This document shows, piece by piece, positions 25,101 to 50,197 of a stretch of DNA of 64,000 nucleotides. The translations under genes were made by a program, and so were the position numbers. This DNA comes from Mayamaea pseudoterrestris. Taxonomy: Eukaryota > Bacillariophyta > Bacillariophyceae > Sellaphorales > Sellaphoraceae. Every line of letters starts with the position of its first letter. Position 1 is the stretch's first letter. The notes below the pieces were generated by a model, which saw only the letters and a list, made by a program, of their open reading frames with translations, did no database searches and was not told the DNA's origin. The stretch lies in NCBI GenBank assembly GCA_027923505.1, contig BROI01000035.1:184440-248439 (forward strand), in the 5' to 3' direction.

Positions 25101-25735
25101 TAGCAGTCCTCTCAGTTGGTCCAAGCAGTGATGTTGTGCGAAGCTTTGCAGAATTCATCAAGCCTCTTTCATCACAGTCGTCGCCCGCCAGTAATGAGCC
25201 AAGCAAAAGTGAAACTTTCTTGAAAAGTCATGCTAATCAGCAGCTGTTGACCGAAACGCTTGCTTCGCCTCCCGGTAGCTTGGTCGCACCCACAATTGAA
25301 GACACGTCGGCCATTCACACGAGCCCGTTAATGGCGGTCGGCCTGTTGCTTGCCGTCGGCTGCCTCGTCGCGACCAAGTTTCGCCGCGACCTGAATGGTG
25401 CGTTCGCAACCCAGCCAGTCATGTTGCACACTCGCATGGCCCTCTGGCAAACGACCTTGCAGCGCAATGGACATCGTACGGGCCTTAATCAAGAGGGCTA
25501 CGAGCGATTAACCGTGACGGATTTGAAGATGATCCTCAAGGATGGATTTCACTGCAACACTCGCTCGAACATTAGCAAGGCCGCCTTGGTTGCCAAGCTC
25601 CTTGAAGAATATGAACGCACACTTTCGGATATGAGCGATGCCTCAATTCGCAAGCTTTTGATAATTCGAGGCGTGGATTTCATGGGTACAACCAAGGAGG
25701 ATCTCATTGCAGAAGCCCTCGCTTCGGGTTTTTAA
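22107..25735 (+). CDS. Repeat-rich two-span membrane protein with C-terminal SAP-like modules
   Basis: Four exons: 22107-22245, 22338-22418, 22513-22575 and 22686-25735 (introns of 92, 94 and 110 nt, all phase 1), giving 1,110 residues. No known family. Residues about 180-413 hold six copies of a unit with PEEIVTFMMMHANAFQ; full units are 42 residues. Around 577-595 lies a hydrophobic span (FFVLFMVFL), then a loop with three related segments containing GKELV-type and WLRRLFGG/WIRRLFGG motifs. A second span lies at about 977-995 (LMAVGLLLAVGCLVA). The last 100 residues have two helix-extended-helix modules (LTVTDLKMILKDGF... and MSDASIRKLLIIRGVDF...KEDLIAEAL) that look like SAP or LEM-related folds. 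An in-frame ATG at 22014 is an alternative start, but CACCATGT at 22107 is better. Confidence 0.72.
22940..23640 (+). repeat. In-frame 126-bp tandem coding repeat, six copies
   Basis: Units encode GG[RP]SPEEIVTFMMMHANAFQ plus a 24-residue spacer (DAL[AT]AVAIESPA...). Copies 1, 2, 5 and 6 are near full length; copy 3 stops after the core, and its fusion to copy 4 and an extra 12-residue fragment (ASEVAPAVLAN) before copy 5 show internal unequal exchange. The nucleotide sequences of the core are almost identical, so the expansion is recent or homogenised. Confidence 0.9.
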
Positions 25736-26103: not shown

Positions 26104-27864
26104 TTAAAATCGGCTGTATCGCTGAATCAATAGAGCAGCCTTACTGTTGAAGATGCGTCGTCGGCGTTCCAGAGCACGAGCGGCGAGAATTGAGTAGCTC
26201 AGTACCAAGAAGTCAAAGACAAGGACAGAGTGGAATATCGTCATCCCGCGTCGAGAAATATTTTCCAAATAACCAATATCAGGATCCGTGCTGTAGTAGA
26301 CATTGGACCACGCATAAAACGTCATGAGCAAAAGATACCACGGATCATGTCTTTCCCAAACATCAATGCACTTTGAAGAGTAAACAAGCTTGTCCATCGC
26401 TGACGATGCACTAATCGTCCAAAAAAGCCAATACGTGAAATCAGTAGCCGGAACATCCATGCGCACGAACCCCTCGAGGTTTAAATGGCTCTCCCAATCC
26501 CTGCTTGCCATGCTGATTCCAATAAAAAAGACTGCAATAGCAATGAGCTGCGTAATGATCAAAAAATATGTGCGGCTTTCGTTTTTTGGACGCTTCAATG
26601 AGTACCAAAGTCTGTCGTGGGCAAAGACATGGGCGTACACCGACAATATAACGACGAAAAGATGTGTCGGAGTGACCATCTCGATTTTGCTTTCAATGAG
26701 TGGCTTGACACGTTGACCGAGGAAGAACTGGTACTGTTGACTGGCTTCCACAGCCAATTCAATGACTGATCGAATCTTGTTAAAGGCTTGTGTAACCTTG
26801 GACTCGACCCATTCTTCGGCAATATCCAAGAAGTCTGCCTCTCGCGTTACAGAGTGTGAAACTGGTGCGTCAATCTCGCCACCCCGTACTAGCGATTCAA
26901 GTTCGATCGCGACAAGAGCGTCATTGTCGTCCCACATTCCAGCATTTGCTGCTTGTTCGTCGACAGTCTCGCGGGGCTTGCGCGAATCAGGCAAAATGAG
27001 CGAGACTGGGGCATCCGTCTCATGCATCAAAGCCGACTCAAACGCAGTCACACGAAACAAAGAACTCTTTTCATCATTTGCAGCAAGAGCAGTTTCTTCT
27101 TTGGCGGCAAGGAAACAAGGCTTGGTAAGTGAGCTTGACGTTGGCGCAAGCGTCACGTTTGCCTTGCTTGCATCAACAAAAGTATTCTTGGCCGAAATGC
27201 CAATGGCTTCGAAAGTCATAATAGACTCGGGCAAGCGCGTCGTAACGGTCCATTCGAATTCGTACGTATTTGTTGTGTCCACGTCAACAGCATTGTATAT
27301 ACAATCGGTAGTCGTTTCGCATTCAATGGTCATGTTTGGCCGCATTACAGTGGGGACAGTCGGCGTCATGTGAATCGTGATTGATCCGGGCGCAGGAGCC
27401 AACGTGGACGAGACTGTAGCGTCAGTCTCAATCGCAATCGTCGTCTCAACCGCAGCCGAAACTTTCGTCTTCAGAGTTTTGAAGGTTTGAAGGACAAATG
27501 ATCGTGCAATAATGTTGCAGCGATTCATCCTCTTGCTCATGCCGATCAGTGCAGTCGTGACTGCGACGTCCGCAGAGTGAAGCGCCATCATGATGGATTC
27601 TTGGAGCGAGAGTGAAGTCACTGCAGTTGTCGTGAAAGGTATTTGATTGCTGCCGTCGACCTGCTGACGAGATAGCTGCTCGTTCATGTAGATTGCTTCC
27701 GCTTCTCCGTCCTGTATTTCAGTCGTAACGGCAGCGTATTGCTGGGAGCTCAAGCCAAAGGCAACGCGCGGTCTTCCAACGACTCCAAATTCGGCTGACG
27801 CCGTCGGCATGAGAGTAAATAGCAAGGCAGTGGCAAGGGCCATGGCCGACGTCCATTTCATCAT
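26104..27864 (-). CDS. Secretory-pathway multi-span membrane protein of unknown family
   Basis: About 586 residues from the ATG at 27864 (a second ATG follows directly). The frame remains open upstream to 28122, but the N-terminus MMKWTSAMALATALLFTLMP with TASA-EFG is a clear signal peptide, which fixes the start. The central part (about 130-400) is Thr/Ala/Val-rich with scattered NMT/NVT sequons and looks extracytosolic. The last 210 residues hold five hydrophobic segments (for example THLFVVILSVYAHVF, YFLIITQLIAIAVFFIGI, YWLFWTISASS, WYLLLMTFYAW, SVLVFDFLVLSYSIL). The C-terminal end ALLIQRYSRF resembles a partial IQ motif. I recognise no family. It could be a receptor or channel-like scaffold; no pore or enzyme motif is visible. 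Confidence 0.6.
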   Translation of the reverse strand: MMKWTSAMALATALLFTLMPTASAEFGVVGRPRVAFGLSSQQYAAVTTEIQDGEAEAIYMNEQLSRQQVDGSNQIPFTTTAVTSLSLQESIMMALHSADVAVTTALIGMSKRMNRCNIIARSFVLQTFKTLKTKVSAAVETTIAIETDATVSSTLAPAPGSITIHMTPTVPTVMRPNMTIECETTTDCIYNAVDVDTTNTYEFEWTVTTRLPESIMTFEAIGISAKNTFVDASKANVTLAPTSSSLTKPCFLAAKEETALAANDEKSSLFRVTAFESALMHETDAPVSLILPDSRKPRETVDEQAANAGMWDDNDALVAIELESLVRGGEIDAPVSHSVTREADFLDIAEEWVESKVTQAFNKIRSVIELAVEASQQYQFFLGQRVKPLIESKIEMVTPTHLFVVILSVYAHVFAHDRLWYSLKRPKNESRTYFLIITQLIAIAVFFIGISMASRDWESHLNLEGFVRMDVPATDFTYWLFWTISASSAMDKLVYSSKCIDVWERHDPWYLLLMTFYAWSNVYYSTDPDIGYLENISRRGMTIFHSVLVFDFLVLSYSILAARALERRRRIFNSKAALLIQRYSRF

Positions 27865-29004
27865 AGTGATTAGTTTGAGATGACTTGATATAGCTGTAGT
27901 ATATGCGTATCGATGGAGAGGCCTCGGATGGAAACATTGTGAGCCGTATTCCTGGCGCTGCGAGGGAGCAGTCGTATTCGCCGACCGGTCTGAAACGTGC
28001 AGGCGTTGATTGTCCGTTTCTGATCGTGCCGCACCTTTGCTGTCGACCTTTCTAGCCGCGACGGATCGCCAAGCAATCATCCACGACTTGATCATGAAGA
28101 GGTGCAGGTGATAATCGTACAAGTATTAAGACCGGTTATGGTTCGCTCCTTTGGCAATCGTCGCAGCAATCGAATCTTCATGGTCAAGTGACGGTCAGTG
28201 ACGGTGAAACCCGAAAGGCTCAACGGAAATGTCAATGGCATGAATGGAAGAAACCGCTGTCACAATGACTAGAATGACTCGCTTTCAGCCAATCAGCGTG
28301 CCCCCTCGATTCTGCCACTCGTGTATGCCTGCAACCATGTTTTCGTCAACGTAGAGCGATTTTCCACGGCGACGACATGATGTAATTAGTCAACGAGGCG
28401 ACAACAGGGTTCTGCTGTGCTGAATAGGATCAATTAACCACCACAGTATCTTTTACAGGGTGACAAAGTATCATCCTTGGCGCACCGCGTGTGTCGACTG
28501 TGTCGTCGGTCAACCATGGCCATGGCAGAAGGCAGAGCATAAAGAGTAAAGAAGACTCGTATGCATTGAATGCGATTTCGGTACCAGATCCACAATCCAA
28601 ATATAAAGTACATGATGGTTCAAAATTTGCCGATGTTAAAAAATAAAGGAGCGACAACGGCTGCCGAAACATTCGATCGCGTTTGGCTTTTCAGATTTCC
28701 GCTACCCACCTTCAGTTTGATGTATTCATGGCAATGGACCCGAGTGCAATAAAGGCGAATTTATAGAGATGCTCGACAGCTATTGTATTCAAAACAAGCC
28801 TACGATGGTTCAAAACCCACTAGCAACCTTCGTGAACGCATTCACGCATTCATCGAACACTCGGCAACATGCTACGAACGCGTCAGTTACAAGATTATTC
28901 ATTTTTTGATCATCACAGGATCCTTGGACAGCAAGATTAGCTGAGTTCGCCCGGCAATTCGAGCAATAGCGCATACAATATAAGGAGCGACACCAGCAGA
29001 GCAC
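27865..29004. other. Intergenic region left of the duplication, 1.1 kb
   Basis: No supported gene. Short frames occur on both strands, but none has coding-like motifs. It ends exactly where the duplicated segment begins. The last 200 bp may belong to the same decayed retroelement seen from 29,067, but I cannot show this. Confidence 0.4.
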
Positions 29005-29066
29005 ATCTTTGGTCCTTCAACGCTATTTCAGCGAGCTGCAGACTTGTAATACTAAATCAAGCCCTG

Positions 29067-29930
29067 TTGACCGCCCGGAGATCGAATTCATTTCGTGATG
29101 ACCAAGACATGCGGCGCCTTCGTTCCCATCTCATTGCGCCATTAATTAATTTCACCTATTTCGATAAACCTTTCGACGTCTGTGGGGAGTCAAGTGACGC
29201 TCTACTAGGAGCCGACAATTCGCAAGGAGCGGAAGACCAATCGCATTCTTTAGTCGCATGCTTTTTTTGGCGCAAAAGAAGTATATACAATAAGAGAACG
29301 AGAGATGCTATGTATTGTGTTGCTTGGACAAGAGGTATGGACGGATATATACAGTCCACTTCAACAAACATCAATCCAACGACAAGACAGCCAAATCGAA
29401 CTGTATTTAACAGTGGAGATGGTTACTCTGAAGAATATGGATAAACGTAGTATTACATCAGAGGAGGAGACAACAAGATGCAGACGCATTGCGGCGGTAA
29501 ATAGAAGGCTATAAAAGACACCACAAACGAAACATCTTTTACAATCGAGGACTCAACAAGCTCCCACACACGAGCTTTACAAACGGCAAAAGCACTTGCT
29601 TCGTTATCGCGCAAATCAATCAGGTCTATACAGACGCAAGCCTTCCATTCGTCGAGGACTACCCGCAAAGCAAAGGAGTGGCGAGTAAGAATCGACCGAC
29701 GGCCTCGGCCAGGGACGAGAAAGAAAAACGCCTCCATCTACCACTGAAGGTGCAATCAATCGCAAAAGCTCAAACGCGAGATGAAGAGCTACAACAAGAA
29801 TTTGCGCGACGACCAGAATACTTTTGGCATGGTCACAAGTAGGCGATGGATGATAAATTCACGAGTGAAGGGTTGGCACGAACACAACGCGACATGCGCA
29901 GCTCGCACAAGCATTATGTGGACTAGGATA
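29067..29930 (+). pseudogene. Ty3/gypsy retrotransposon relic (RT/RNase H to integrase region)
   Basis: A plus-strand frame reads LRSHLIAPLINFTYFDKPFD, then SSDALLGADNSQ and VACFFWRKRSIYN, which matches the start of the gypsy RNase H region (the usual pattern is aPLL-x-PDF-x-KPF-x-x-x-TDASD-x-x-GA-x-L-x-Q ... FFSRKL-x-x-x-E-x-x-Y). The catalytic TDAS Asp is lost (ESSD). Further on, LPLKVQSIAKAQTRDEELQQ resembles the linker before the integrase H2C2 finger. Stops and frame changes separate these pieces and no LTR is visible, so it is an old fragment. Confidence 0.6.
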
Positions 29931-29975
29931 CTGTATATCCTTCAAAAGTTGTTATTTAATGATTGCAGAATTAAA

Positions 29976-30629
29976 TCAGTTGATTAGTCGTCTTTCATTG
30001 TCCTCGACACACGCCACACCAAAGAATACGTCAACATTGCCAGAGCCAAAGTCAAAAGACTCCGTCGAAACCAGATCCATTCCTGCTGTATGATACATTA
30101 ATGTAGCCTTTTCGAGTGTCATTCCATTGGGGTGTTCGTCTTTGGATTGTAGCCAATCTGAGTGGCAGAAACGACCAGTCGATGGTTTTAACAGCTGCGC
30201 CAGTAGTTGAAGTGTTCGTGGTCGATCCGATTCAGGAATGAAATTCAGTACATTGCTGGCAACAATCAAATCAATGCGACCAGTATATTGTGCATTAAGC
30301 GATTCTATCACAAGGTTTGTAGGACCGCCAAAGACACCTTGGATTGCAAGGACGTTATTCCAATCTCGCGACTGAATCTTTTCTTGGAGCAACTCGATCA
30401 TGCTTGGACTCGCGTCAATTGCTAGAATCGTTTGGCACTTGGTTCGCAGAGTTTCCGTCAATAATCCTGTCCCGCATCCAAAATCTAGAATAATAGAATT
30501 TCCTTCGTCGACTGGTAAAAGGCTCGCTTGTTGAAGTGTCGCATAAAACGATTGCGCGTATGGGCGGGCCATGTCGTCCCAATCACCAGCCATGGCATTC
30601 CATTCTCGCGTCACTTGGTCTTGGTTCAT
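29976..30629 (-). CDS. Class I SAM-dependent methyltransferase (copy 1)
   Basis: 217 residues in one exon from ATG 30629. Motif I is ILDFGCGTGLLTETL (residues about 47-61), followed by AIDASPSMIELLQEKI with the acidic residue that binds the SAM ribose. IDLIVASNVLNFIP is motif post-II, and WLQSKDEHPNGMTLE lies near the region where substrates bind in small-molecule methyltransferases. The family (methyltransf_11/25 type) is broad and the substrate is not predictable. It is divergent from Rab1 with a 531-bp shared upstream region. An identical copy lies at 36,145-36,798. Confidence 0.85.
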   Translation of the reverse strand: MNQDQVTREWNAMAGDWDDMARPYAQSFYATLQQASLLPVDEGNSIILDFGCGTGLLTETLRTKCQTILAIDASPSMIELLQEKIQSRDWNNVLAIQGVFGGPTNLVIESLNAQYTGRIDLIVASNVLNFIPESDRPRTLQLLAQLLKPSTGRFCHSDWLQSKDEHPNGMTLEKATLMYHTAGMDLVSTESFDFGSGNVDVFFGVACVEDNERRLIN

Positions 30630-31160
30630 TGCTATATAAAGATGTATGTAGCTCGAGGCTGGGTTGTATTGGCCGCTGTTAAAAGATGCACGAATGTCGA
30701 TTTACTGTTATCCTCCCATTATGGAATGGTCGGGACGCGGTGACAAGTCACGACGAGGTCATGGATGACGTACAATTCATCCAATCAGACCAATGCATCG
30801 CATTGGACCTTTTTTCAAAGTTTCTGGCGTACTCTTCAATCGACTGTGCCAAAAACTCTATTTTTCAAAGTTTTTGACACTACTCTCTAATGCACTGTAA
30901 AACAGACAATAAAATATCAAAGTCATTTGAGGCACTCTTTTCTTGACAGTGAAAATTCGCACGACCGCAACGATCGCCAACAACTCGGCGCGGGGCGAAC
31001 CAGCGGCGCGATGAGTCATGAAATATGCTACTATAACATTTTGTGTAAATATTCAAGATCGGATAATGAATACATGACTTGACTTGGGGATAAAGATAAG
31101 AGCCGTTACTTCGGCCACGCCGGCGCATGGTTTCCCAACGACACAACGAATCGATCGACC
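30630..31160. promoter_or_regulatory. Divergent intergenic promoter region with palindromic repeat
   Basis: This lies between the methyltransferase and Rab1. At 30,815-30,900 the pattern TTTTTTCAAAGTTTCTGGCG, GTGCCAAAAACTCTA and TTTTTCAAAGTTTTTGACAC repeats with a period near 48 bp and matches the element at 2,405-2,500 in the other divergent promoter. A TATATAA-like stretch (GCTATATAAAG) lies at 30,631-30,641 immediately before the methyltransferase ATG. The second copy is at 36,799-37,329. Confidence 0.5.
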
Positions 31161-32040
31161 ATGGCGCCTGGTTCCTCCACCAAGCAAAGAGACTACGACC
31201 ATCTCTTCAAGCTGGTTCTCATTGGAGACAGCGGAGTTGGTAAATCATGCCTGCTTCTTCGATTTGCGGTAAGAAATGCTGTAGAGGAAGTTGGACGAGG
31301 CAGATCCGCATCGTTGCTGCTACCGATAGTCGATGAATGAAGACTGAATTGGACGTTTGTCGTCCTCGTTTCAATCAAAGAGGACTAGTATTCTGAAAAC
31401 TTCTACTTTGCGTTTTGGGACAGGATGACGCCTTTACCGAGTCTTATATTAGCACCATTGGAGTCGACTTTCGCTTCCGAACCGTCAAGATTGAGAAAAA
31501 GACGGTCAAGCTGCAAATTTGGGACACTGCTGGACAGGAGCGCTTTCGAACAATTACTTCGGCGTACTATCGTGGAGCAGGTATTTATTTGTTTGCTTTG
31601 CGAGTGCGACGAGAGCATGACGACCAGCTGCCCTGCTCAATGCTCATTTTATACAATCATATCATTCTTCAATTGCTACTTACGCAGACGGAATCATCAT
31701 GGTATTTGATGTAACATCAACGGAATCGTTTGATCACGTGAATGACTGGCTCAAGGAGGTGAATCGGTACGCAGCGGAAGGAACGGTCAAGCTTCTGGTG
31801 GGCAACAAGTGCGACCGGTCGGCTGACCGAGTAGTTTCGGAGGAGCAAGCCAAGGATTTCGCGCAAGAATTGGGTATTCCGTATATTGAAACGTCTGCCA
31901 AGTCGGCCAAGAATGTCGAGGAAGCATTCTTGACCATGGCTGGTGAGTTGATTCGTCAGCGAGCGGCGCGAGGCGAGACTGAGACTGCCAAGAAGGGAAT
32001 CGATTTACAGGAGAAGGCTGCCAAGTCGAATTGCTGTTAG
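31161..32040 (+). CDS. RAB1: Rab1/Ypt1-type small GTPase (copy 1)
   Basis: Three exons, 31161-31268, 31424-31580 and 31688-32040 (introns 155 and 107 nt), give 205 residues, the standard Rab1 length. All GTPase motifs are present: P-loop GDSGVGKS, effector region [35 protein letters not shown] and ETSAK. The C-terminal SNCC is a double-cysteine geranylgeranylation site. Rab1 controls ER-to-Golgi and intra-Golgi transport by recruiting tethers. The intron after RGA is in phase 1 and restores [13 protein letters not shown]2, a Golgi tether subunit, follows head-to-tail after 514 bp. An identical copy lies at 37,330-38,209. Confidence 0.95.
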
Positions 32041-32418
32041 TTCATTAATTGATTGAGCGAGAACGAGCTTGCAATATACTCGTGCTTGGAAATCTTTGTT
32101 TGTTGCTTGCATTCTTGCTATATTGGTGGAAGGGGCGAGACGACACGACGACATTGTCAAAAGAATACCGTAGACCAACATAATAGCAGTGTCTTCTACT
32201 GGTTTTCCGTTGCTATTCCGCTTGTAATGTATTGCAATGGATGACAATACGAGTACTTGTACCAGTAGGTATACCCACATCTTTGGATCGAACAGCAACA
32301 TGGCGTTTCTGACAACAGCACATGCGCCGACTCGCGTACGAAGCAAGGAGGTCATGCGTCTGGAAAACGAGAGGCAGGTCATCCGTTCACTTTTGCGCAA
32401 ACGGATCCAACTATGCAT
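32005..32418 (-). CDS. Possible small membrane protein (copy 1), uncertain
   Basis: A 137-residue minus-strand frame occupies most of the gap between Rab1 and COG2 and overlaps the last 36 bp of Rab1. From the internal ATG near 32,301 it would encode FDPKMWVYLLVQVLVLSSIA followed by a polar loop and AIMLVYGILLTMSS, one or two membrane helices. No family is recognised and the overlap with Rab1 argues against the full length; it may be a chance frame. The same frame exists at 38,174-38,587. Confidence 0.25.
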   Translation of the reverse strand: MHSWIRLRKSERMTCLSFSRRMTSLLRTRVGACAVVRNAMLLFDPKMWVYLLVQVLVLSSIAIHYKRNSNGKPVEDTAIMLVYGILLTMSSCRLAPSTNIARMQATNKDFQARVYCKLVLAQSINELTAIRLGSLLL

Positions 32419-32554
32419 GACCGACTGCCCTTTCAGGTTCTATAGCGTATATATGTACAAAGACTGTAACAATCGACTGGAATATAGAGGCGCTTAGAGA
32501 GTCTTTCTGTTCATCGTGCTGCATCTACCATTTGGACTCGATCCGACGCCAAGC

Positions 32555-35218
32555 ATGTCGTCGTCGCATTCGCACCAGACATCCGACGACTACAGCAGCA
32601 GCAATATTCCCAAGAACATGTCTACCATGTCTCTGGAAAGGCGACTCCAGCAATTAAAGGAAGAGTCTCAGAAGTTGGATCAAACATTGACGCAGAAACT
32701 TGCATCGAGTCCATCGGGTCAAAACCTTTTGCACATGAGCACCTCGCTGAATACACTGCCGCCGGATTTGCATTTGCTACTGCAGCAACTTCATCCAATT
32801 TACTCGCAAGCTGAGCAAGCCGAAAGTAGTCAATGGGAGATTCTGGACGATCTGACGCAGGCTGCAAGAGCGATTCAACTGGCGGACCGAAGAGTCATTC
32901 ACGCCAACGATTGCATTGACTTGTACGAGGATTTGATGGCTGCAGAGGCTTGCGTCATTCGCCGAAACAAGTACAAAGTAAACGATAAGGAGAATGAAAA
33001 TCGAAAAATTCAGGAGGAGGAACATGACTGGGATGCCAATGACGATCTACAAGGTATGCGTCTATGCATGATGCATTCTGCATTCTACTAGCAGCCGTCA
33101 CTCGTTTCTCGTCTCGTCACACTTGTCACTCACATGTTGCGCCTAATTCTTCGCAAAGACGACTTGAACTATGCGTCATCACTAGAGCGAGCCTCACATG
33201 TGACACTTTGTCTCATTCACGACTTGCATATTGCTACAGATGCGGTTTCGGCTTTGACAACGTCAGGCAAGCGAGGACTTTTGCCGTCGACGAGTAGCAA
33301 CGACACTATCAATGACTCCATGACAACGACAAACAAACAGGTACCTTCGCTCGCGACGCCACTGCCAGATGACTGTGAAAGAGCGCAGTTCGTCATGAAG
33401 CTTGCCCCAAGAATTAGACGATTAGAGGCGGAAACTATAAAATGCTTGGCGGAGCAATTTGAGTTTTTGCTAAAGGAGTTCCATGCGCTGCAAACTCTGG
33501 AGCAGCAAAAGAATGCCAACAACGACGTTGAAGAACCAGTGATGGTCAACGATAGTAGCAATTTACATGACATGCAGCAGCAATCGCTACTGTTGGTGAT
33601 GCTTGGACATGTCATGCGCGGACTAGCTCTACTCGGTCGAGGTAAGGAGGTGGAATCCATCTTTGGACGCGTCGCTATTATGCCACTAGTGCGGCCGCAA
33701 ATTACAATGGGACGCATGGATGAGGGTGGGAATCGGGGTGAATGTGCCGGTTTGGAGAGGTTGCTGCAGGATGTTTTGCAGAGTGTTATCGTGACCTATG
33801 GACCAGTGGTTCGAATGAGTGAAACCATGTTTGTAAGTTACGATGGACCTACCGGTAACGATGAAGAATTGTCGGCTATGCTGGACGTTGACTTGCTCAC
33901 GGCCGGTGTATGGGTTCCGTTGGCAACGGCACTCATGGCCGACTCAGGTATTCAAATGGCAATCTTCTCGCCCGGAATAGCGAGCATACTGCAGGCAAAT
34001 TACACGACGCTTGATCGGTTCCTCGCGCAATTAGCGGATCGAGTGTTGTTGGAAGAAGAAAATGCAAAAATTACTGTTGTTAAAGACGAGAGCAAAAGGC
34101 AAACCTTTGACCCCCTACAACAAAATTTGACGGAGGGGTGGTGTCGAAAAGCGCAGGAACGGATTTACGCGCACCCCAAGACAGCTGAATTTACTAAGCG
34201 ATGGAACTTGCCAATCTACTATCAGCTTCGATTCGGTGAGTGTTGCACTCGACTTAACAAAGCAATTGATGCTACGAGACGTAACGGTTGGATAGCACAA
34301 GTGTTTAGTGGCAGTGAAGATAAAGAGGCAGTCATTAAGTCGCAATCTGGACTTGAAATTTCGTTTTTTGTTGAACTATATGACGTTATATTTGGATTGT
34401 GGCGGCCCGACGTTATTCTCACTCCATTGGCGAACCGGTTCCTGCGAGGTGCGATTCAAGTAATAGGCCGAACTGTGACGTTCGTCGAGGAAGGCATGCG
34501 ATGTCGAGTCAGATTTGGCGACGAGCCGAAACCGCGGGAGGCAAGGAATGGCGCGACCGAAAATGGCAACGGTCAGGCGCTAGTAGTCGAAGCGACGGAT
34601 GCTAGCGACGGCGGAGCAGTGTCGCATGCGCCGTACCCATCTCGAGCACCATACTATTGGGGAGAGAGCGAAGTGGATGTTGCCGGCGTGGCGTGGGAGC
34701 TCAACATACTAGAATCCATCTTGAGTCATGAGTATGGCACAGTTGTATGCGAAGCACTCAAGCTGTCAAACTTCGGTCCGGAGCGTGCTGAGATTCGGGA
34801 GATTGTGGACGAAATGCTCAAGGAAGCAAGCAACCTTATACATCCATTAATTGATATGGCATGGAACGAGATCATTGTCGAACTGATAACGAAAAAGTGT
34901 GCGCAACCACTCGCTGCTGTTAAAGGAGTTGCTGCTACATATCGCATGACGAATCGACCTCCTCCAACGCAAGCTTCTCCATTTGTCGGCACCGTGTTAC
35001 GGCCACTGAAAGAATTCATCGACGAGTTTGGCCACCGAATTCCGGATCGAGTAGGATCAAAATGGAAGCACCAAATTGTCGCGACTATTGCTGAACAATA
35101 TGCACTCGCTGTAGAGGAGCTCATCAGTACGGTTCAGAGAACGGAAGTGGCGCTGAATAGTCGAAGGACACGGATCTTTGGTCCTTCAACGCTATTTCAG
35201 CGAGCTGCAGACTTGTAA
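32555..35218 (+). pseudogene. COG2: COG2, left copy truncated by the duplication junction
   Basis: Exon 1 is 32555-33053, the intron 105 nt, and exon 2 33159-35218. The sequence is identical to the complete gene at 38,724 up to residue 838 (RRTR). At 35,174 the reading frame crosses the duplication junction and picks up 14 unrelated residues (IFGPSTLFQRAADL) before a stop. It therefore lacks the last 65 residues of COG2. The deleted part is only the extreme C-terminus, so a partly functional or dominant product is conceivable, but loss of the normal 3' end probably destabilises the transcript. Confidence 0.85.
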
Positions 35219-35235
35219 TACTAAATCAAGCCCTG

Positions 35236-36099
35236 TTGACCGCCCGGAGATCGAATTCATTTCGTGATGACCAAGACATGCGGCGCCTTCGTTCCCATCT
35301 CATTGCGCCATTAATTAATTTCACCTATTTCGATAAACCTTTCGACGTCTGTGGGGAGTCAAGTGACGCTCTACTAGGAGCCGACAATTCGCAAGGAGCG
35401 GAAGACCAATCGCATTCTTTAGTCGCATGCTTTTTTTGGCGCAAAAGAAGTATATACAATAAGAGAACGAGAGATGCTATGTATTGTGTTGCTTGGACAA
35501 GAGGTATGGACGGATATATACAGTCCACTTCAACAAACATCAATCCAACGACAAGACAGCCAAATCGAACTGTATTTAACAGTGGAGATGGTTACTCTGA
35601 AGAATATGGATAAACGTAGTATTACATCAGAGGAGGAGACAACAAGATGCAGACGCATTGCGGCGGTAAATAGAAGGCTATAAAAGACACCACAAACGAA
35701 ACATCTTTTACAATCGAGGACTCAACAAGCTCCCACACACGAGCTTTACAAACGGCAAAAGCACTTGCTTCGTTATCGCGCAAATCAATCAGGTCTATAC
35801 AGACGCAAGCCTTCCATTCGTCGAGGACTACCCGCAAAGCAAAGGAGTGGCGAGTAAGAATCGACCGACGGCCTCGGCCAGGGACGAGAAAGAAAAACGC
35901 CTCCATCTACCACTGAAGGTGCAATCAATCGCAAAAGCTCAAACGCGAGATGAAGAGCTACAACAAGAATTTGCGCGACGACCAGAATACTTTTGGCATG
36001 GTCACAAGTAGGCGATGGATGATAAATTCACGAGTGAAGGGTTGGCACGAACACAACGCGACATGCGCAGCTCGCACAAGCATTATGTGGACTAGGATA
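35236..36099 (+). pseudogene. Ty3/gypsy relic, second copy
   Basis: Identical to 29,067-29,930. The degraded RNase H and pre-integrase segments have the same stops in both units, so the relic was already decayed before the duplication. Confidence 0.6.
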
Positions 36100-36144
36100 C
36101 TGTATATCCTTCAAAAGTTGTTATTTAATGATTGCAGAATTAAA

Positions 36145-36798
36145 TCAGTTGATTAGTCGTCTTTCATTGTCCTCGACACACGCCACACCAAAGAATACGT
36201 CAACATTGCCAGAGCCAAAGTCAAAAGACTCCGTCGAAACCAGATCCATTCCTGCTGTATGATACATTAATGTAGCCTTTTCGAGTGTCATTCCATTGGG
36301 GTGTTCGTCTTTGGATTGTAGCCAATCTGAGTGGCAGAAACGACCAGTCGATGGTTTTAACAGCTGCGCCAGTAGTTGAAGTGTTCGTGGTCGATCCGAT
36401 TCAGGAATGAAATTCAGTACATTGCTGGCAACAATCAAATCAATGCGACCAGTATATTGTGCATTAAGCGATTCTATCACAAGGTTTGTAGGACCGCCAA
36501 AGACACCTTGGATTGCAAGGACGTTATTCCAATCTCGCGACTGAATCTTTTCTTGGAGCAACTCGATCATGCTTGGACTCGCGTCAATTGCTAGAATCGT
36601 TTGGCACTTGGTTCGCAGAGTTTCCGTCAATAATCCTGTCCCGCATCCAAAATCTAGAATAATAGAATTTCCTTCGTCGACTGGTAAAAGGCTCGCTTGT
36701 TGAAGTGTCGCATAAAACGATTGCGCGTATGGGCGGGCCATGTCGTCCCAATCACCAGCCATGGCATTCCATTCTCGCGTCACTTGGTCTTGGTTCAT
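36145..36798 (-). CDS. Class I SAM-dependent methyltransferase (copy 2)
   Basis: Identical 217-residue copy of the gene at 29,976-30,629, with the same upstream region. Both copies appear intact (motif I DFGCGTG), so dosage should be doubled if both are expressed. Confidence 0.85.
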   Translation of the reverse strand: MNQDQVTREWNAMAGDWDDMARPYAQSFYATLQQASLLPVDEGNSIILDFGCGTGLLTETLRTKCQTILAIDASPSMIELLQEKIQSRDWNNVLAIQGVFGGPTNLVIESLNAQYTGRIDLIVASNVLNFIPESDRPRTLQLLAQLLKPSTGRFCHSDWLQSKDEHPNGMTLEKATLMYHTAGMDLVSTESFDFGSGNVDVFFGVACVEDNERRLIN

Positions 36799-37329
36799 TG
36801 CTATATAAAGATGTATGTAGCTCGAGGCTGGGTTGTATTGGCCGCTGTTAAAAGATGCACGAATGTCGATTTACTGTTATCCTCCCATTATGGAATGGTC
36901 GGGACGCGGTGACAAGTCACGACGAGGTCATGGATGACGTACAATTCATCCAATCAGACCAATGCATCGCATTGGACCTTTTTTCAAAGTTTCTGGCGTA
37001 CTCTTCAATCGACTGTGCCAAAAACTCTATTTTTCAAAGTTTTTGACACTACTCTCTAATGCACTGTAAAACAGACAATAAAATATCAAAGTCATTTGAG
37101 GCACTCTTTTCTTGACAGTGAAAATTCGCACGACCGCAACGATCGCCAACAACTCGGCGCGGGGCGAACCAGCGGCGCGATGAGTCATGAAATATGCTAC
37201 TATAACATTTTGTGTAAATATTCAAGATCGGATAATGAATACATGACTTGACTTGGGGATAAAGATAAGAGCCGTTACTTCGGCCACGCCGGCGCATGGT
37301 TTCCCAACGACACAACGAATCGATCGACC

Positions 37330-38209
37330 ATGGCGCCTGGTTCCTCCACCAAGCAAAGAGACTACGACCATCTCTTCAAGCTGGTTCTCATTGGAGACAG
37401 CGGAGTTGGTAAATCATGCCTGCTTCTTCGATTTGCGGTAAGAAATGCTGTAGAGGAAGTTGGACGAGGCAGATCCGCATCGTTGCTGCTACCGATAGTC
37501 GATGAATGAAGACTGAATTGGACGTTTGTCGTCCTCGTTTCAATCAAAGAGGACTAGTATTCTGAAAACTTCTACTTTGCGTTTTGGGACAGGATGACGC
37601 CTTTACCGAGTCTTATATTAGCACCATTGGAGTCGACTTTCGCTTCCGAACCGTCAAGATTGAGAAAAAGACGGTCAAGCTGCAAATTTGGGACACTGCT
37701 GGACAGGAGCGCTTTCGAACAATTACTTCGGCGTACTATCGTGGAGCAGGTATTTATTTGTTTGCTTTGCGAGTGCGACGAGAGCATGACGACCAGCTGC
37801 CCTGCTCAATGCTCATTTTATACAATCATATCATTCTTCAATTGCTACTTACGCAGACGGAATCATCATGGTATTTGATGTAACATCAACGGAATCGTTT
37901 GATCACGTGAATGACTGGCTCAAGGAGGTGAATCGGTACGCAGCGGAAGGAACGGTCAAGCTTCTGGTGGGCAACAAGTGCGACCGGTCGGCTGACCGAG
38001 TAGTTTCGGAGGAGCAAGCCAAGGATTTCGCGCAAGAATTGGGTATTCCGTATATTGAAACGTCTGCCAAGTCGGCCAAGAATGTCGAGGAAGCATTCTT
38101 GACCATGGCTGGTGAGTTGATTCGTCAGCGAGCGGCGCGAGGCGAGACTGAGACTGCCAAGAAGGGAATCGATTTACAGGAGAAGGCTGCCAAGTCGAAT
38201 TGCTGTTAG
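37330..38209 (+). CDS. RAB1: Rab1/Ypt1-type small GTPase (copy 2)
   Basis: Exons 37330-37437, 37593-37749 and 37857-38209; 205 residues, identical to copy 1 including introns and the SNCC prenylation tail. This copy is followed by the complete COG2. Confidence 0.95.
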
Positions 38210-38723
38210 TTCATTAATTGATTGAGCGAGAACGAGCTTGCAATATACTCGTGCTTGGAAATCTTTGTTTGTTGCTTGCATTCTTGCTATATTGGTGGAA
38301 GGGGCGAGACGACACGACGACATTGTCAAAAGAATACCGTAGACCAACATAATAGCAGTGTCTTCTACTGGTTTTCCGTTGCTATTCCGCTTGTAATGTA
38401 TTGCAATGGATGACAATACGAGTACTTGTACCAGTAGGTATACCCACATCTTTGGATCGAACAGCAACATGGCGTTTCTGACAACAGCACATGCGCCGAC
38501 TCGCGTACGAAGCAAGGAGGTCATGCGTCTGGAAAACGAGAGGCAGGTCATCCGTTCACTTTTGCGCAAACGGATCCAACTATGCATGACCGACTGCCCT
38601 TTCAGGTTCTATAGCGTATATATGTACAAAGACTGTAACAATCGACTGGAATATAGAGGCGCTTAGAGAGTCTTTCTGTTCATCGTGCTGCATCTACCAT
38701 TTGGACTCGATCCGACGCCAAGC

Positions 38724-41540
38724 ATGTCGTCGTCGCATTCGCACCAGACATCCGACGACTACAGCAGCAGCAATATTCCCAAGAACATGTCTACCATGTC
38801 TCTGGAAAGGCGACTCCAGCAATTAAAGGAAGAGTCTCAGAAGTTGGATCAAACATTGACGCAGAAACTTGCATCGAGTCCATCGGGTCAAAACCTTTTG
38901 CACATGAGCACCTCGCTGAATACACTGCCGCCGGATTTGCATTTGCTACTGCAGCAACTTCATCCAATTTACTCGCAAGCTGAGCAAGCCGAAAGTAGTC
39001 AATGGGAGATTCTGGACGATCTGACGCAGGCTGCAAGAGCGATTCAACTGGCGGACCGAAGAGTCATTCACGCCAACGATTGCATTGACTTGTACGAGGA
39101 TTTGATGGCTGCAGAGGCTTGCGTCATTCGCCGAAACAAGTACAAAGTAAACGATAAGGAGAATGAAAATCGAAAAATTCAGGAGGAGGAACATGACTGG
39201 GATGCCAATGACGATCTACAAGGTATGCGTCTATGCATGATGCATTCTGCATTCTACTAGCAGCCGTCACTCGTTTCTCGTCTCGTCACACTTGTCACTC
39301 ACATGTTGCGCCTAATTCTTCGCAAAGACGACTTGAACTATGCGTCATCACTAGAGCGAGCCTCACATGTGACACTTTGTCTCATTCACGACTTGCATAT
39401 TGCTACAGATGCGGTTTCGGCTTTGACAACGTCAGGCAAGCGAGGACTTTTGCCGTCGACGAGTAGCAACGACACTATCAATGACTCCATGACAACGACA
39501 AACAAACAGGTACCTTCGCTCGCGACGCCACTGCCAGATGACTGTGAAAGAGCGCAGTTCGTCATGAAGCTTGCCCCAAGAATTAGACGATTAGAGGCGG
39601 AAACTATAAAATGCTTGGCGGAGCAATTTGAGTTTTTGCTAAAGGAGTTCCATGCGCTGCAAACTCTGGAGCAGCAAAAGAATGCCAACAACGACGTTGA
39701 AGAACCAGTGATGGTCAACGATAGTAGCAATTTACATGACATGCAGCAGCAATCGCTACTGTTGGTGATGCTTGGACATGTCATGCGCGGACTAGCTCTA
39801 CTCGGTCGAGGTAAGGAGGTGGAATCCATCTTTGGACGCGTCGCTATTATGCCACTAGTGCGGCCGCAAATTACAATGGGACGCATGGATGAGGGTGGGA
39901 ATCGGGGTGAATGTGCCGGTTTGGAGAGGTTGCTGCAGGATGTTTTGCAGAGTGTTATCGTGACCTATGGACCAGTGGTTCGAATGAGTGAAACCATGTT
40001 TGTAAGTTACGATGGACCTACCGGTAACGATGAAGAATTGTCGGCTATGCTGGACGTTGACTTGCTCACGGCCGGTGTATGGGTTCCGTTGGCAACGGCA
40101 CTCATGGCCGACTCAGGTATTCAAATGGCAATCTTCTCGCCCGGAATAGCGAGCATACTGCAGGCAAATTACACGACGCTTGATCGGTTCCTCGCGCAAT
40201 TAGCGGATCGAGTGTTGTTGGAAGAAGAAAATGCAAAAATTACTGTTGTTAAAGACGAGAGCAAAAGGCAAACCTTTGACCCCCTACAACAAAATTTGAC
40301 GGAGGGGTGGTGTCGAAAAGCGCAGGAACGGATTTACGCGCACCCCAAGACAGCTGAATTTACTAAGCGATGGAACTTGCCAATCTACTATCAGCTTCGA
40401 TTCGGTGAGTGTTGCACTCGACTTAACAAAGCAATTGATGCTACGAGACGTAACGGTTGGATAGCACAAGTGTTTAGTGGCAGTGAAGATAAAGAGGCAG
40501 TCATTAAGTCGCAATCTGGACTTGAAATTTCGTTTTTTGTTGAACTATATGACGTTATATTTGGATTGTGGCGGCCCGACGTTATTCTCACTCCATTGGC
40601 GAACCGGTTCCTGCGAGGTGCGATTCAAGTAATAGGCCGAACTGTGACGTTCGTCGAGGAAGGCATGCGATGTCGAGTCAGATTTGGCGACGAGCCGAAA
40701 CCGCGGGAGGCAAGGAATGGCGCGACCGAAAATGGCAACGGTCAGGCGCTAGTAGTCGAAGCGACGGATGCTAGCGACGGCGGAGCAGTGTCGCATGCGC
40801 CGTACCCATCTCGAGCACCATACTATTGGGGAGAGAGCGAAGTGGATGTTGCCGGCGTGGCGTGGGAGCTCAACATACTAGAATCCATCTTGAGTCATGA
40901 GTATGGCACAGTTGTATGCGAAGCACTCAAGCTGTCAAACTTCGGTCCGGAGCGTGCTGAGATTCGGGAGATTGTGGACGAAATGCTCAAGGAAGCAAGC
41001 AACCTTATACATCCATTAATTGATATGGCATGGAACGAGATCATTGTCGAACTGATAACGAAAAAGTGTGCGCAACCACTCGCTGCTGTTAAAGGAGTTG
41101 CTGCTACATATCGCATGACGAATCGACCTCCTCCAACGCAAGCTTCTCCATTTGTCGGCACCGTGTTACGGCCACTGAAAGAATTCATCGACGAGTTTGG
41201 CCACCGAATTCCGGATCGAGTAGGATCAAAATGGAAGCACCAAATTGTCGCGACTATTGCTGAACAATATGCACTCGCTGTAGAGGAGCTCATCAGTACG
41301 GTTCAGAGAACGGAAGTGGCGCTGAATAGTCGAAGGACACGGAAATCAGCGACTGGTGGTATGCGTGACGGCGAGAAGGTCAAACTCCAAGTATTTCTGG
41401 ATTATGAACAGTTTACGAAGAGCTTAGAGGATGTCGGTGTCGATCCAGCCACGGTAATTGGTGTTTCGAAGCTTAAGCAACTGACGGCCGAGGGCGAGGA
41501 GTTGCTCAAGCGCAACGAAAATGGTAGTGGCAATATATAG
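38724..41540 (+). CDS. COG2: Conserved oligomeric Golgi complex subunit 2 (complete copy)
   Basis: Exon 1 is 38724-39222, a 105-nt intron (GTATGC...CGCAAAG, phase 1), and exon 2 39328-41540, giving 903 residues. COG2 belongs to lobe A of the COG complex, which tethers recycling vesicles at the Golgi. The N-terminus (to about 165) is helical and coiled-coil-like, as in other COG subunits. The best family match is in the middle: HPKTAEFTKRWNLPIYYQLRFGE, a hallmark of COG2 (HPxxxxFxKRWNLPVYFQLRF). IFGLWRPDVILTPLANRFLRGAIQVIGR resembles the usual LPPLTHRFWKLTLQLLSRY segment. An Ala/Gly/Glu-rich insert separates the C-terminal helical region. The ATG at 38724 is preceded by CAAGC; an in-frame non-ATG extension exists upstream. 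It ends 78 bp before the convergent next gene. Confidence 0.85.
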
Positions 41541-41565: not shown

Positions 41566-41652
41566 TTTTAAAAGCCCATAGTACACCCATTGGCTCGACC
41601 ATTTTCCGATAAGAATTTTAAAAGCCCATGGCACACCCATCGGCTCGTCCAT
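41566..41652. repeat. Near-direct 37-bp repeat at a gene 3' end
   Basis: TTTTAAAAGCCCAT starts units at 41,566-41,602 and 41,616-41,652 (period 50 bp, four mismatches). The right unit encodes the last codons of the transpeptidase (DGRADGCAMGF, stop); the left unit is a copy of that tail just beyond the stop. A small duplication therefore affected the 3' end of the gene. Confidence 0.8.
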
Positions 41653-43417
41653 CAGAGCCTGCCCACAGTACACCGTTTCTGCGGTCCCTTTTGATAATCT
41701 GTGCTCGTCCAAAGACACTACGATCATGGCCAGTAATTTTCGCCTGAACAAGGTGACCCCGCACTTGAAGATCACGAATCATCGCTTCCTCGAAGCCCTC
41801 TTCCATGAGAGCCACTCCATTATGCGTTCCATCGCTAATGCAGAATCGAGGAGCGTCGATGGCCGCCTGCGGATCCAACCCACCAGCCAGCATGCCAACA
41901 GTCAACTGCAAATGACCTTGCGGCTGCATGTTGCCGCCCATGTTGGACAATGTCGCGTAAAGTTCGTTTGTGTCGGAATGTGTCAACATGCCTGGAATGA
42001 TAGTGTGAAAGGGTCGCTTGCCTGGCCCAGGCGCGTTGGGGTGGTTCGCTTGTAGCGTAAAACCAAACCCTCTGTTTTGCAACGTAAACCCACAGCCATT
42101 CGGAACAATGCCCGTGCCGAATCCCATGTAGTTGCTATTTACAAATGAAACGGCGTTGGCATTTGCGTCCACCACTTGGAAGCTGACAGTGCAGCTCGAA
42201 GCATCAGGTACTCCGTGTATCTTGGCATGAGCTGGATCAAACAATCGTTCAGCTCGCTCGCCAATTCGTTCCTCGTGCAATAACCACTTTGAGTCTACTT
42301 TCATGGTTTCCATGTCACCAACGTGAGCTGTCGAGTCGGCAAATCCAAGTCGCATCATTTCCAAGAGTGCGTGAACTGTGTCGGCATTCGAAAAATTGTC
42401 TGGAGCAATTGGCGGTATCAACTTCTTTTCTTCCAAGTGCCGCAGTCCCGACAATGCAACCAGTCCAGCAACTCCTTGGCCGTTTGGAGGCACTTGCCAG
42501 AGTTTGCAGCCTCGATATTCGGCGTGTATCGGATCCGGAAAGGTACTCGAATGTAACACCAAGTCTTCCTGGGTCAGGCAGCCGCCATGCTTCTGCACAA
42601 CGTCAACAATCGCACGACCGGTCATTCCTCTATAAAAGCCGTCCGCTGCTCCATGCTCACCAAAGTCTCGCAAGACTCTAGCCATGTCTGGGTTGTGAAT
42701 GATTTCGCCAGGCTCCGGTCCGCGGCCATCAATGGCCAAAGGAACGGCCTCATTTATTTCCAGCCACTTTGTAATTTGACTCATGCCACTCTTCCAATGA
42801 TATGATGTAATGGGCGCTACTGGAAAGCCTTCCTCAGCCAATCGAATGGCCGGTTCGAGTAATGCCAGCATGGTGAAATTGCCACTCCCATGCTTGTCAA
42901 GTAAGTCTTGCCATCCCATGGCTGCACCTGGCACTGTTACAGAGTCTGGCGAGTCTCTATATATAATCTTGTCGACTCCCGGTAGTTCGTCATGCTGGTT
43001 GGTTGGATACTTTGTCTGTAGTAGCTCCATGTTTAGCTTACGAGGACTCTTGCCGGATCCGTTAATTGTGTGAACCGTTCGTGTTTGACTCTGGTAGTAC
43101 AAGCAGAACATGTCACCACCAAGGCCCGTACTGCAAGGCTCTACGACAGCCAGAGCAGCAGCGACTCCAATGGCTGCTTCCGCTGCATTAGCGCCTGCCT
43201 TTAACAAGTCGTAGCCGATGGCCGATGCGAGAGGTTGACTGGAAGCGACGCACGCATGACGACAAAGAAGCGGACTGCGTCGAGAATCGAATGCAAGATG
43301 ATGTTCATTGTTTTGAAGGCTTGTCGCTTTGCTTTCTTCGCTTTCGCTTGCTAATACCGGTATGCCTTCTTGAGCATTTGACAATGGAGGTAGTGAAGAT
43401 TTGTACCAGTCGGCCAT
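41618..43417 (-). CDS. Gamma-glutamyltranspeptidase-family protein
   Basis: 599 residues in one exon, ATG 43417. The N-terminal part has ASSQPLASAIGYDLLKAGANAAEAAIGVAAALAVVEPCSTGLGGD, the GGT signature including GLGGD. The autoprocessing site lies at CTVSFQVVD: Thr410 aligns with the catalytic N-terminal Thr of the small subunit (usual TTH-x-S-x-x-D), but the second Thr and the His are replaced by V and S. Downstream, NYMGFGTGIV, CGFTLQNRG and NMGGNMQPQGHLQ match the glycine-rich oxyanion and substrate loops (usual GSGGG-type replaced by MGGN). It has no signal peptide, unlike secreted GGT, so it may be a cytosolic acylase or GGT-like hydrolase rather than a glutathione GGT. Confidence 0.82.
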   Translation of the reverse strand: MADWYKSSLPPLSNAQEGIPVLASESEESKATSLQNNEHHLAFDSRRSPLLCRHACVASSQPLASAIGYDLLKAGANAAEAAIGVAAALAVVEPCSTGLGGDMFCLYYQSQTRTVHTINGSGKSPRKLNMELLQTKYPTNQHDELPGVDKIIYRDSPDSVTVPGAAMGWQDLLDKHGSGNFTMLALLEPAIRLAEEGFPVAPITSYHWKSGMSQITKWLEINEAVPLAIDGRGPEPGEIIHNPDMARVLRDFGEHGAADGFYRGMTGRAIVDVVQKHGGCLTQEDLVLHSSTFPDPIHAEYRGCKLWQVPPNGQGVAGLVALSGLRHLEEKKLIPPIAPDNFSNADTVHALLEMMRLGFADSTAHVGDMETMKVDSKWLLHEERIGERAERLFDPAHAKIHGVPDASSCTVSFQVVDANANAVSFVNSNYMGFGTGIVPNGCGFTLQNRGFGFTLQANHPNAPGPGKRPFHTIIPGMLTHSDTNELYATLSNMGGNMQPQGHLQLTVGMLAGGLDPQAAIDAPRFCISDGTHNGVALMEEGFEEAMIRDLQVRGHLVQAKITGHDRSVFGRAQIIKRDRRNGVLWAGSDGRADGCAMGF

Positions 43418-43769
43418 GCTGACTTCCTGTTGGCCTGTTGGCTGCTGAATGGAAGCAACAAGGCTACCTACGTTTGCACTCTCGTCAGACGCCGGTCATA
43501 AAAAATGATGCACTTGCTTGATGCTTCATTTTACCAGCCCTTTTTGGACAACAATACAAGTCAGAAGCGTCGCGTCATTTTGGATTTTGATGGGTTGCAA
43601 TCGTTGAATGTCAGTGCGACATTTTGGATCATTCAGCAACGAAGTTAGCTATGCATGATTTGCCGGTATAAATAGCCATTGACTTCTACGAGAAATAATT
43701 TCCATTTGCACCATGTACAATACAAAGGACGTACAGGAGTACAAGTGGTAAGAAGTGCAAGGCCATGGC
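43418..43769. promoter_or_regulatory. Divergent promoter region
   Basis: 352 bp between the transpeptidase and the TPX2-like/PIG-B gene. It contains GCCGGTATAAATAGCC (TATAAATA at 43,667), a TATA-box-like sequence about 40 bp before a possible leader. CACCATGTACAAT at 43,713 begins a 12-codon frame closed by TAA at 43,749, which could be a short upstream ORF. Confidence 0.4.
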
Positions 43770-46700
43770 ATGATTCCAAGTCTCATTCAAGATACCGGTA
43801 CGACACACTGGGAATCTTCAACCTTGATGCAGAAGCGAAACGTTTTTGACCCAACGCCGATCTATCATCACCATGACAAGAATCGCCAGGCGCGCGACGC
43901 ATGGCAAAACAGCGTCAAACCTAATATGAATAATCAGATAGTAAATGAACAAGACGATATTGATTTGGATGACTTTCTAGATGATCTTTTGGATACAGCG
44001 GCGGCGACAGCAGCAGACGCCGAGGCGTCACTCCTTCGAGAATGTGACAGCACCAATACCGCACTTCCGTTGACAAGTATGTATTCTCCAGCGGAGGATA
44101 ATATAAAAGACAAGAAATTCGAATCAAGATGTATCCAGCAGGATCAGCTACCATCCAGTGCCTTGCTTTCGTCCAAGCGCGAGTCAAAGATCCCGACGCC
44201 GACAAACATTCGCAAGAAAGACGCGATCAACCGTAAACATGAAACGACGTTCGTCTCCGCAAATTCCGATGAAATTATTCAGCGCCAGCCAGTCTCTGTT
44301 GAAAAATCTGATTGCAGCGTAACGGGAGCTTCAATAAACATGAACGGTACTACGCGATTGCCAGCAGAAAGTCGAATTCCAGCACCCAGAATGAACTTTA
44401 GCAAAACCAAACCATCCAAGTCACCAACGATTCCACAAGCACCTCGACTGCATGCGTCGCGATTCAATAAACGGGAAATGAGTCAGGAGGATCCTTACGC
44501 CATGGCCCAAGCTGATCACGTGCTCAAAAAGAACTTGCGCAGCAGCCCAGAAACAGCATCCAGTGAAACGAGCAAGCGATCGCCAACCCATACTACCATT
44601 TCGCAAGCACCTCGCCTACATCAGTCGCGAGTCAATAGGCAAGAGATTAGTATGGAGGATCCATATTCCATGGCGCAGGCTGACCATGTACTGAGAATGG
44701 CTCTGCGAAATACCGGTAGTCCACAGACTTGTTCAAGAAAAAGCAAACGATCGCCGACTGGCATTACTGTCCCAAAAGCACCAGCATTTCATCACTCAAA
44801 TCGAAAGCAGCAAGCAAAACAGCAGCCAATGCAGGCGCAAGTGTTCATGGCACAGAGTCTTGATTTGCTGAAAAAGAATTTAAGAAGCTCTCCCATCGCA
44901 TCACCGAATTCTCCTGCATCGCCCTCGAAAACTATTCCGCAAGCGCCAACTTTTCATTCAGTTCACGAACGAAAACTACCAAAGAGTCGTGATGAAATGG
45001 AATTGGAAAGCATACAACAATCTACGACCTTTAAAGCGACTCCCATGCCAGACTTTTCCTCGTTGGCGACGATACCAGCGATCGATTCGCCGAACCGAAC
45101 GAAAGCAACACCGACTATTACCGAGCCGTTTCATTTCCAATCCGAGGATCGAGCAGCTCATCACAAGAAGCCAGAGGCTAGTGTTGACAAGGAAGCTTTG
45201 GATTTGGAAGAATGCAAGAACAAATTCAAGGCTAGGCCCATGCCAGGCGAGTTCAAACAGCAGCGCCATCGAATAGACGAGGAGGCGAGTGATTCACCGA
45301 CAAAATCGACTACATCGACTCGGCTAACCATAGACGAACCTGCTTTTACTCCATTTAAAGCTCGACCTATTCCGCAATCTACATACATGTCGCCCGAAAA
45401 CTATCACTCCGTCTCGTCCGTGAGTAGTCACAATCTACCGCAAATGATTGACTCGGTCGACTTGGAGGCAACCCTTCATGAGCAAAATGGTCAATATAAC
45501 GACAGTAGCAATAAAGTGGACCATCTCGACGGGTCGTTGTCTACCTCGTCAGCGGAAAAGAGATTACGGCTCGAGGAATACAGGCGCAAAAAGGACGAGA
45601 AGCGAAAGTTTGAGCAGGAAGAGGAGCTACGGCGACGCGAGTTTCATGCTCGTCCACTCCCAAAGTCGATCCAGCAGCAGCTAAATCATAGGGGTGAACA
45701 TGAAATGATAAAAAAGAACACTATAGGACATGCCGATGATAGAACAGCATTTACATTCCATGCGCGACCGCTGCCAAAGTCCATCGCACTGGAGTTGCAG
45801 CAACGCACTAGCAACAATAAGAGGAAGCCACTTATTGGAGAAGAAACAACAACGTTTAAGTTTCTCGCCCGCCCGTTGCCAAACTCGACTGTTCCAAAAA
45901 TACTCAAGCGCAACGAAGTGAAATCAGCTGCGCACGATGATACCATGGGTGTGAACATTGCCGACGGAAAGAAAAGTTGTGTAAATCAGTCGACGACTAC
46001 TTTGTCGCTTAGCACCAACAAGATATACGCAATAAAGTCGCCGAATGCCAACAAAGATACGACGGACCCGCAAATACATGTTCAAAGTCACAAAGGTTCG
46101 GCATCAGAAGTGCAGAATGCAAGCGAGTATCAGGCAGGTTCGATGCCTGCATTGACAGAGCGATTCAATGCAATGGTTAAGATGAACGCAAAAACTGCAA
46201 GAGAGTTTCGAGCGGGCGCTCGTTTTGATACGGAGTCGAATGAAGACAGCAAGGCTGCTGCATTATCTCCTTTGAATGCGTCGACAGGACGAACAACAGT
46301 CTCTTGCGAATCTTCTAAACCTACCTCCTATAGCCAGCATCCACACTCAGTCAAAATGTTCATCTTGATATGCATCGTTCGTCTCGTCAATACTCATTTC
46401 ATCCAGTCCTACTTTGAAGCCGATGAATACTGGCAAACTCTTGAGCCGGCCTACTGCGCTGCATATTTTCCTGACCATAACGATTGTTCAGGGCTGACCT
46501 GGGAATGGAAACGCCGATCAGGTCTCGACGTCGTGTCGATCAGTGATATGTTGATGGCAAGTATGCTGGGACCTGTGCGGACATACTTGTCCGTGCTGCC
46601 AACTTTCTTCCTTTACAAGATTGCTCAATTCTTTGGTTTGGACTCTAGTGGGATGATAGCTCGCGGCCCGATGATTCTCAACTCTATAATTGTAGCAGCG

Positions 46701-50030: not shown

Positions 50031-50039
50031 CTAAGTAGA

Positions 50040-50197
50040 CAGAACAGAGTCAATAAAACCACTTTACTTATTTTCTCCAAGAAGTGATCGTCCTCGATCC
50101 ACTCCTTCGGTTGCCGCTTACCGCGCTTACTTAAATGTGACCGTCTTCGTGACGTCACCGCTGCCGCTTCGGTTTGGGTTCTCATCCATGCTCAACA
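50040..50197 (-). repeat. 3' LTR of copia element
   Basis: 158 bp, identical to 55,056-55,213 in my comparison. In element orientation it begins TGTTGAGCATGG and ends CTCTGTTCTG, so the 5' end has the usual TG but the 3' end is not CA. The polyprotein frame runs into it (stop at 50,127). A purine-rich stretch (CAAAGGAGTG) directly precedes it. Confidence 0.9.

Follow-up and report, generated by a model that had tools for sequence, protein, structure and literature searches.

Is the gene-bearing DNA segment that stands twice in direct succession near the end of one contig a duplication that the cell carries, or was its second copy made by the assembler? The window, that is, the whole 64-kb stretch of DNA that was analysed, forms the right end of contig C35 (248,439 bp), whose left end begins within a 286-bp repeat present in many copies. 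Two adjacent copies of a 6,169-bp unit lie in the window in direct orientation, as in a tandem segmental duplication:

29,005–35,173, plus strand: first copy of the unit, an exact match to the second copy
35,174–41,342, plus strand: second copy of the unit, an exact match to the first copy
35,173–35,174: novel junction between the two copies; the surrounding 30-mer is unique within the window

Base-for-base comparison of both copies gave 0 differences in 6,169 positions, and the identical bases comprise 3,786 bp of coding and 2,383 bp of other sequence according to our own gene models. Within the window, the exact self-match at an offset of 6,169 extends over 6,170 bases, one more than the unit, and one base (A) is therefore common to both breakpoints. 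The initial annotation had claimed a perfect 6,169-bp direct tandem duplication with a boundary sharing 1 bp; both claims are correct, the former with non-coding DNA included, yet the shared base is uninformative as it is at chance level. The next-longest exact direct repeat in C35 measures 158 bp (seeds of 40; the control is C35 only, 248 kb of 30.6 Mb), and the 6,169-bp repeat is far beyond chance.

A DNA search of the assembly (30,627,229 bases in 41 contigs), with the unit queried as two halves, returned 46 matches for one half (two full length, the others short or diverged) and three for the other (two full length and one of 35 bp). The two full-length places of each half are both in C35. 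Neither a third full-length copy nor a contig of an alternative haplotype with a single copy was among the assembly matches of the two halves. No published account of this duplication was found in the excerpts of the literature that were searched.

The unit and its immediate flanks contain the following genes and open reading frames:

29,976–30,629, minus strand: first copy of a class I SAM methyltransferase gene, ORF of 217 aa (Pfam Methyltransf_25, E 1.9e-14)
36,145–36,798, minus strand: second copy of the methyltransferase gene, an ORF identical to the first copy
31,161–32,040, plus strand: first copy of a Rab1/Ypt1-type GTPase gene, 205 aa, with modelled exons 31,161–31,268, 31,424–31,580, and 31,688–32,040
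37,330–38,209, plus strand: second copy of the GTPase gene, identical to the first and matched in the genome search
32,555–35,218, plus strand: first copy of the COG2 gene, cut at the junction; its product of 852 aa matches the COG2_C profile as far as position 269 of 300
38,724–41,540, plus strand: second copy of the COG2 gene, intact, 903 aa, COG2_C profile matched over 1–299 of 300
26,104–28,122, minus strand: left-flank ORF of 672 aa with no Pfam match
41,618–43,417, minus strand: right-flank gamma-glutamyltranspeptidase ORF of 599 aa with no other match in the assembly
43,755–48,227, plus strand: right-flank ORF of 1,490 aa with an Alg9-like mannosyltransferase domain and no other match in the assembly

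ORF tables were computed with the bacterial code, and the introns of the Rab1 and COG2 genes were set by a scripted GT-AG search without transcripts; for COG2, which offers a choice of two donor sites separated by 6 bp, the model uses a 105-nt intron. The GTPase ends in CC, the C-terminal double cysteine of Rab1/Ypt1 proteins, and every one of the 21 PDB sequences that this query lists with E no higher than 1e-70 is named Rab1, an assignment made by closest match. The COG2 proteins carry the COG2_C domain (Pfam E 1.8e-56 for copy 2 and 1.6e-50 for copy 1), which was found at two places in the genome, both in this tandem array, while their N-terminal exon (ORF 32,516–33,091) had no Pfam match. 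COG2 copy 2 extends beyond the right edge of the unit. As the right breakpoint lies within the last COG2 exon, copy 2 is whole and copy 1 is cut: it consists of 838 shared aa, breaking off 65 residues short of the protein's end, followed by 14 foreign aa from the start of the second unit copy and a stop, and its COG2_C match shrinks from profile positions 1–299 to 1–269. The left breakpoint falls in sequence with no recognised gene and is spanned by a 167-aa frame that has no Pfam match. Inverted repeats sought within the unit yielded nothing informative, and a search for tRNAs found none in the 64-kb window.

We consider a young tandem duplication, arising from sister DNA through end joining or a switch of template, to be the best reading of this locus, and give it slightly better than an even chance. 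The copies abut at a base-precise, gapless junction, and beyond the second one the contig continues for 7.7 kb in unique sequence that contains long ORFs; such a gapless junction, together with this unique right flank, whose ORFs are long and intact, and a long ORF on the left, favours a real duplication. So do the exact two-copy structure with its single junction and the finding of just two full-length places for each half of the unit among the assembly matches. When an assembly falsely duplicates a segment within one scaffold, a gap between the copies is a main, though not obligatory, sign of it (PMC9516828), and there is not a single N in the window or in the whole of C35, which likewise counts for a real duplication. 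The strongest alternative, to which we assign somewhat less than an even chance, is a homotype false duplication made by the assembler, with one copy in the cell. Two overlapping pieces of the same locus would have been placed one after the other, or a loop in the path traversed twice, and the result polished to identity. Against this, the junction is gapless and both copies are clean with long ORFs, and an N-free new junction would presumably need reads to support it, even if these were chimeric.

The breakpoints themselves are without the signature of any biological mechanism, which counts against a real duplication. At least 1 bp is shared by 43.4% of 20,000 random breakpoint pairs placed 6,169 bp apart, and the 1-bp microhomology is at chance level. 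The two 60-bp breakpoint neighbourhoods are of average similarity to each other (P = 0.59 versus 3,000 random pairs). With such chance-level likeness nothing favours recombination between repeats, and NAHR between flanking repeats was rejected, as the breakpoints share 1 bp and not a long homology. Exact identity combined with chance-level microhomology is, on the other hand, what an unmerged overlap would be expected to leave behind.

More weight on the side of false assembly comes from the end of the contig, beyond the unique sequence:

49,041–64,000: suspect tail of C35, composed of 1 kb resembling contig C31, a copia element and a stretch resembling contig C10 (55,300–63,577)
~50,040–55,215: copia-type element with RVT_2 and zinc-knuckle ORFs

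Positions 49,041–50,018 match C31 at 96% (978 versus 1,008 nt), 55,300–62,800 match C10 at 96% (7,501 versus 7,584 nt), and 62,801–63,577 match C10 at 91% (777 versus 788 nt), the C35 version being the shorter one in all three of these matches; 63,553–63,948 match another place in C10 at 85% and, partly, C2. The copia element has at least 15 other near-full-length copies, with 26 of 64 candidates scored (12 copies at 100%, one at 99%, and two at 97%). Copies were placed inside contigs by contig extents or by farther matches along the contig. At least 10 of the 15 lie inside contigs, from which it follows that the assembly often crossed identical repeats that, at 5.2 kb, are nearly as long as the unit, a point in favour of a real tandem duplication; one copy (C13) begins a contig. 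C10 carries none of the copia copies listed, and the C31 copy is separated from the matching 1 kb by about 20 kb; the three components of the tail are thus not adjacent to one another in the other contigs.

Differences between the tail and C10 were counted over 2,197 aligned bases, and substitutions were taken as isolated if three matching columns stood on both sides. C35 lacks 91 nt in 40 gap events, compared with 18 nt in 12 events that C10 lacks, and the 27 isolated substitutions (170 mismatches overall) read, from C10 to C35, as 21 A>G, three A>T, and three C>T, with no other kind. All twelve kinds occur among the 58 substitutions of the C7/C9 control pair, 10 of which are A>G, and the gaps of that pair amount to 14 and 10 events; tail and control differ in the share of A>G (Fisher P 1.1e-7), and the deletion excess has a P of 1.3e-4. 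The longest open frame, 326 aa in C10, is broken to 167 aa in the tail. One-sided deletions together with A>G changes are unusual between alleles and look like uncorrected nanopore reads, in which deletions are the commonest error and A/G confusion has been described (PMC8486125). We infer that the tail is probably a noisy read or a low-coverage stretch joined via the copia element, and thus a false duplicate; it may alternatively be a genuine copy, diverged by an unusual pattern of mutation, or another haplotype. An apparent false duplicate of C31 and C10 sequence in the same contig makes the false-assembly reading of the tandem array likelier, and some contigs do break in repeats (C13 starts in the copia element, C35 in its 286-bp repeat), but 7.7 kb of unique DNA, long ORFs included, lies between the array and the noisy tail.

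The identity of the copies suits both readings. Zero heterozygous differences (0/6,169) are characteristic of homotype false duplications, and polishing could produce the exact identity. As reads from one locus may be laid on both copies during polishing, identity alone neither dates nor proves a duplication. Taken as a divergence estimate, 0/6,169 sets a 95% upper limit of 4.9e-4, which, at the summed substitution and indel rates of Phaeodactylum tricornutum (PMC6604790), probably not the host's species, amounts to less than roughly 4.9e5 generations; this bound is valid only if the copies are real, were not equalised by polishing and are unconverted. The initial annotation had offered the choice between a very recent event and an assembly error: both readings stand, while its use of identity as a clock is unsafe, as polishing could have equalised the copies, and its artefact option gains indirect support from the contig tail, which it had missed.

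Two further explanations carry little weight. An older duplication held identical by gene conversion is very improbable: identical tandem copies can be homogenised, but there is no difference even near the junction or in non-coding DNA, and a recent origin is simpler. Least credible is a heterotype false duplication, in which two alleles of a diploid were set in tandem. In its favour, the diatom P. tricornutum is diploid and an assembler kept its alleles separate; these, however, were divergent enough for Canu to split (PMC8147415), whereas the complete lack of copy-to-copy differences here (0/6,169) speaks against two alleles and would admit them only in a homozygous region, where this case is indistinguishable from the homotype one.

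If the preferred reading of a young, real duplication holds, the array would stem from one event in the nuclear genome of a diatom, which duplicated 6,169 bp directly and in tandem. Started by a break or by template switching at a replication fork, it would have connected the last part of COG2 with a position on the sister chromatid that lies 6.2 kb upstream, probably by homology-independent end joining or template switching. A template from the same haplotype or sister chromatid would account for the zero differences. The outcome, as read from the sequence, is that the methyltransferase and Rab1 genes are each present twice in complete form, alongside one intact (copy 2) and one cut COG2 gene. 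The second copy would then be present in the cell, recent in origin and joined by one of the routes named, and any dosage effect is equally putative.

That Rab1 and COG2 are neighbours within a single duplicated unit could be chance. COG is a Golgi tether, and yeast COG mutants are partly suppressed by extra Ypt1; Rab1a binds COG4 and COG6, and residues 613–669 of mammalian COG2 bind p115 (PMC6771879). Were the duplication real and fixed in the strain, one event could have doubled Rab1, changing the dosage of this Golgi Rab, and at the same time made a possibly dominant, C-terminally cut COG2, a subunit of the tether that works with Rab1, a proposal that we regard as improbable. A real array would represent a young duplication in which three gene fates (two whole pairs, and one whole plus one cut gene) are traceable from the start. 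A false one would burden the annotation with two spurious gene gains and a spurious truncated COG2. The tail is perhaps the more useful observation, as it suggests that unpolished false duplicates could be spotted from the sequence alone by their one-sided deletions and A>G changes.

Regarding the host, 53 matches to the chlorophyll-binding family PF00504 were obtained in the assembly. Of three frames searched against PDB, two are closest to fucoxanthin-chlorophyll proteins, and the third has a weaker light-harvesting match, with fucoxanthin proteins lower in its list. The fucoxanthin-chlorophyll proteins matched are diatom proteins. A fragment of PDB 6a2w, Lhcf4 of P. tricornutum, finds its best match on C12, where it is split into two pieces at 90% identity, and a full-length match of 80% on C19. 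These matches point to a diatom that is probably not P. tricornutum itself.

As a duplication, the array is of an ordinary, well-known kind. It shares with the tandem segmental duplications and copy number variants (CNVs) of microbial eukaryotes a gene-sized unit whose copies are direct and adjacent. In P. tricornutum, 284 genes with CNV are reported among 17 accessions (PMC10833087); that study, in the portion consulted, works with per-gene read depth and gives no junctions, whereas the present array comes from a single assembly and is resolved to its junction base. With homotype false duplications, a term of the VGP, it has in common the location on one scaffold and copies free of allelic differences, but a main mark of these, as described in PMC9516828, is a gap between the copies, and the array described here is gapless.

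The right end of the window's contig, C35, resembles sequence elsewhere in the same assembly. The features considered here are as follows.

15584-17437, 617-aa ORF that carries a VLRF1 release-factor domain together with a Vms1-associating treble clef
22616-25735, 1,039-aa ORF without Pfam match
29203-29825 and 30746-30968, two repeat families in the 6,169-bp tandemly repeated unit, present in copy 2 too
49041-64000, suspect contig tail resembling parts of contigs C31 and C10
50040-55215, copia-type LTR element

Sequence comparison of the tail with its C31 and C10 counterparts showed that deletions are one-sided and that substitutions are biased towards A>G; the tail has the look of a false duplicate of these parts that was never polished. 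The substitution spectrum is balanced in the pair of loci serving as control, which consists of two chlorophyll-binding genes and their flanks on contigs C7 and C9 with 93% identity across 3.5 kb; these may be alleles that the assembly kept apart or may stem from a genuine segmental duplication. Two Rab-like frames on C1 (2226304-2226819) and C15 (280454-280969) had equal score, identity, and length in the genome search and are possibly another recent dispersed duplication.

The two repeat families within the unit have many short, diverged relatives genome-wide (72-90% identity) and are apparently non-coding. Tandem repeats of 126 bp (42 residues) are included in the 1,039-aa ORF.

The LTRs of the copia-type element in the tail are identical over 158 bp, and at least 15 further near-full-length copies, 12 of them at 100%, are among the matches listed; this family has either multiplied very recently or owes its sameness to polishing. 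The left end of C35 falls within a 286-bp repeat (positions 1-286 at that end) with at least 23 other matches among those listed. Several of these are paired with approximately 6.5-7 kb between the members, a spacing as would be expected of the LTRs of a second element family.
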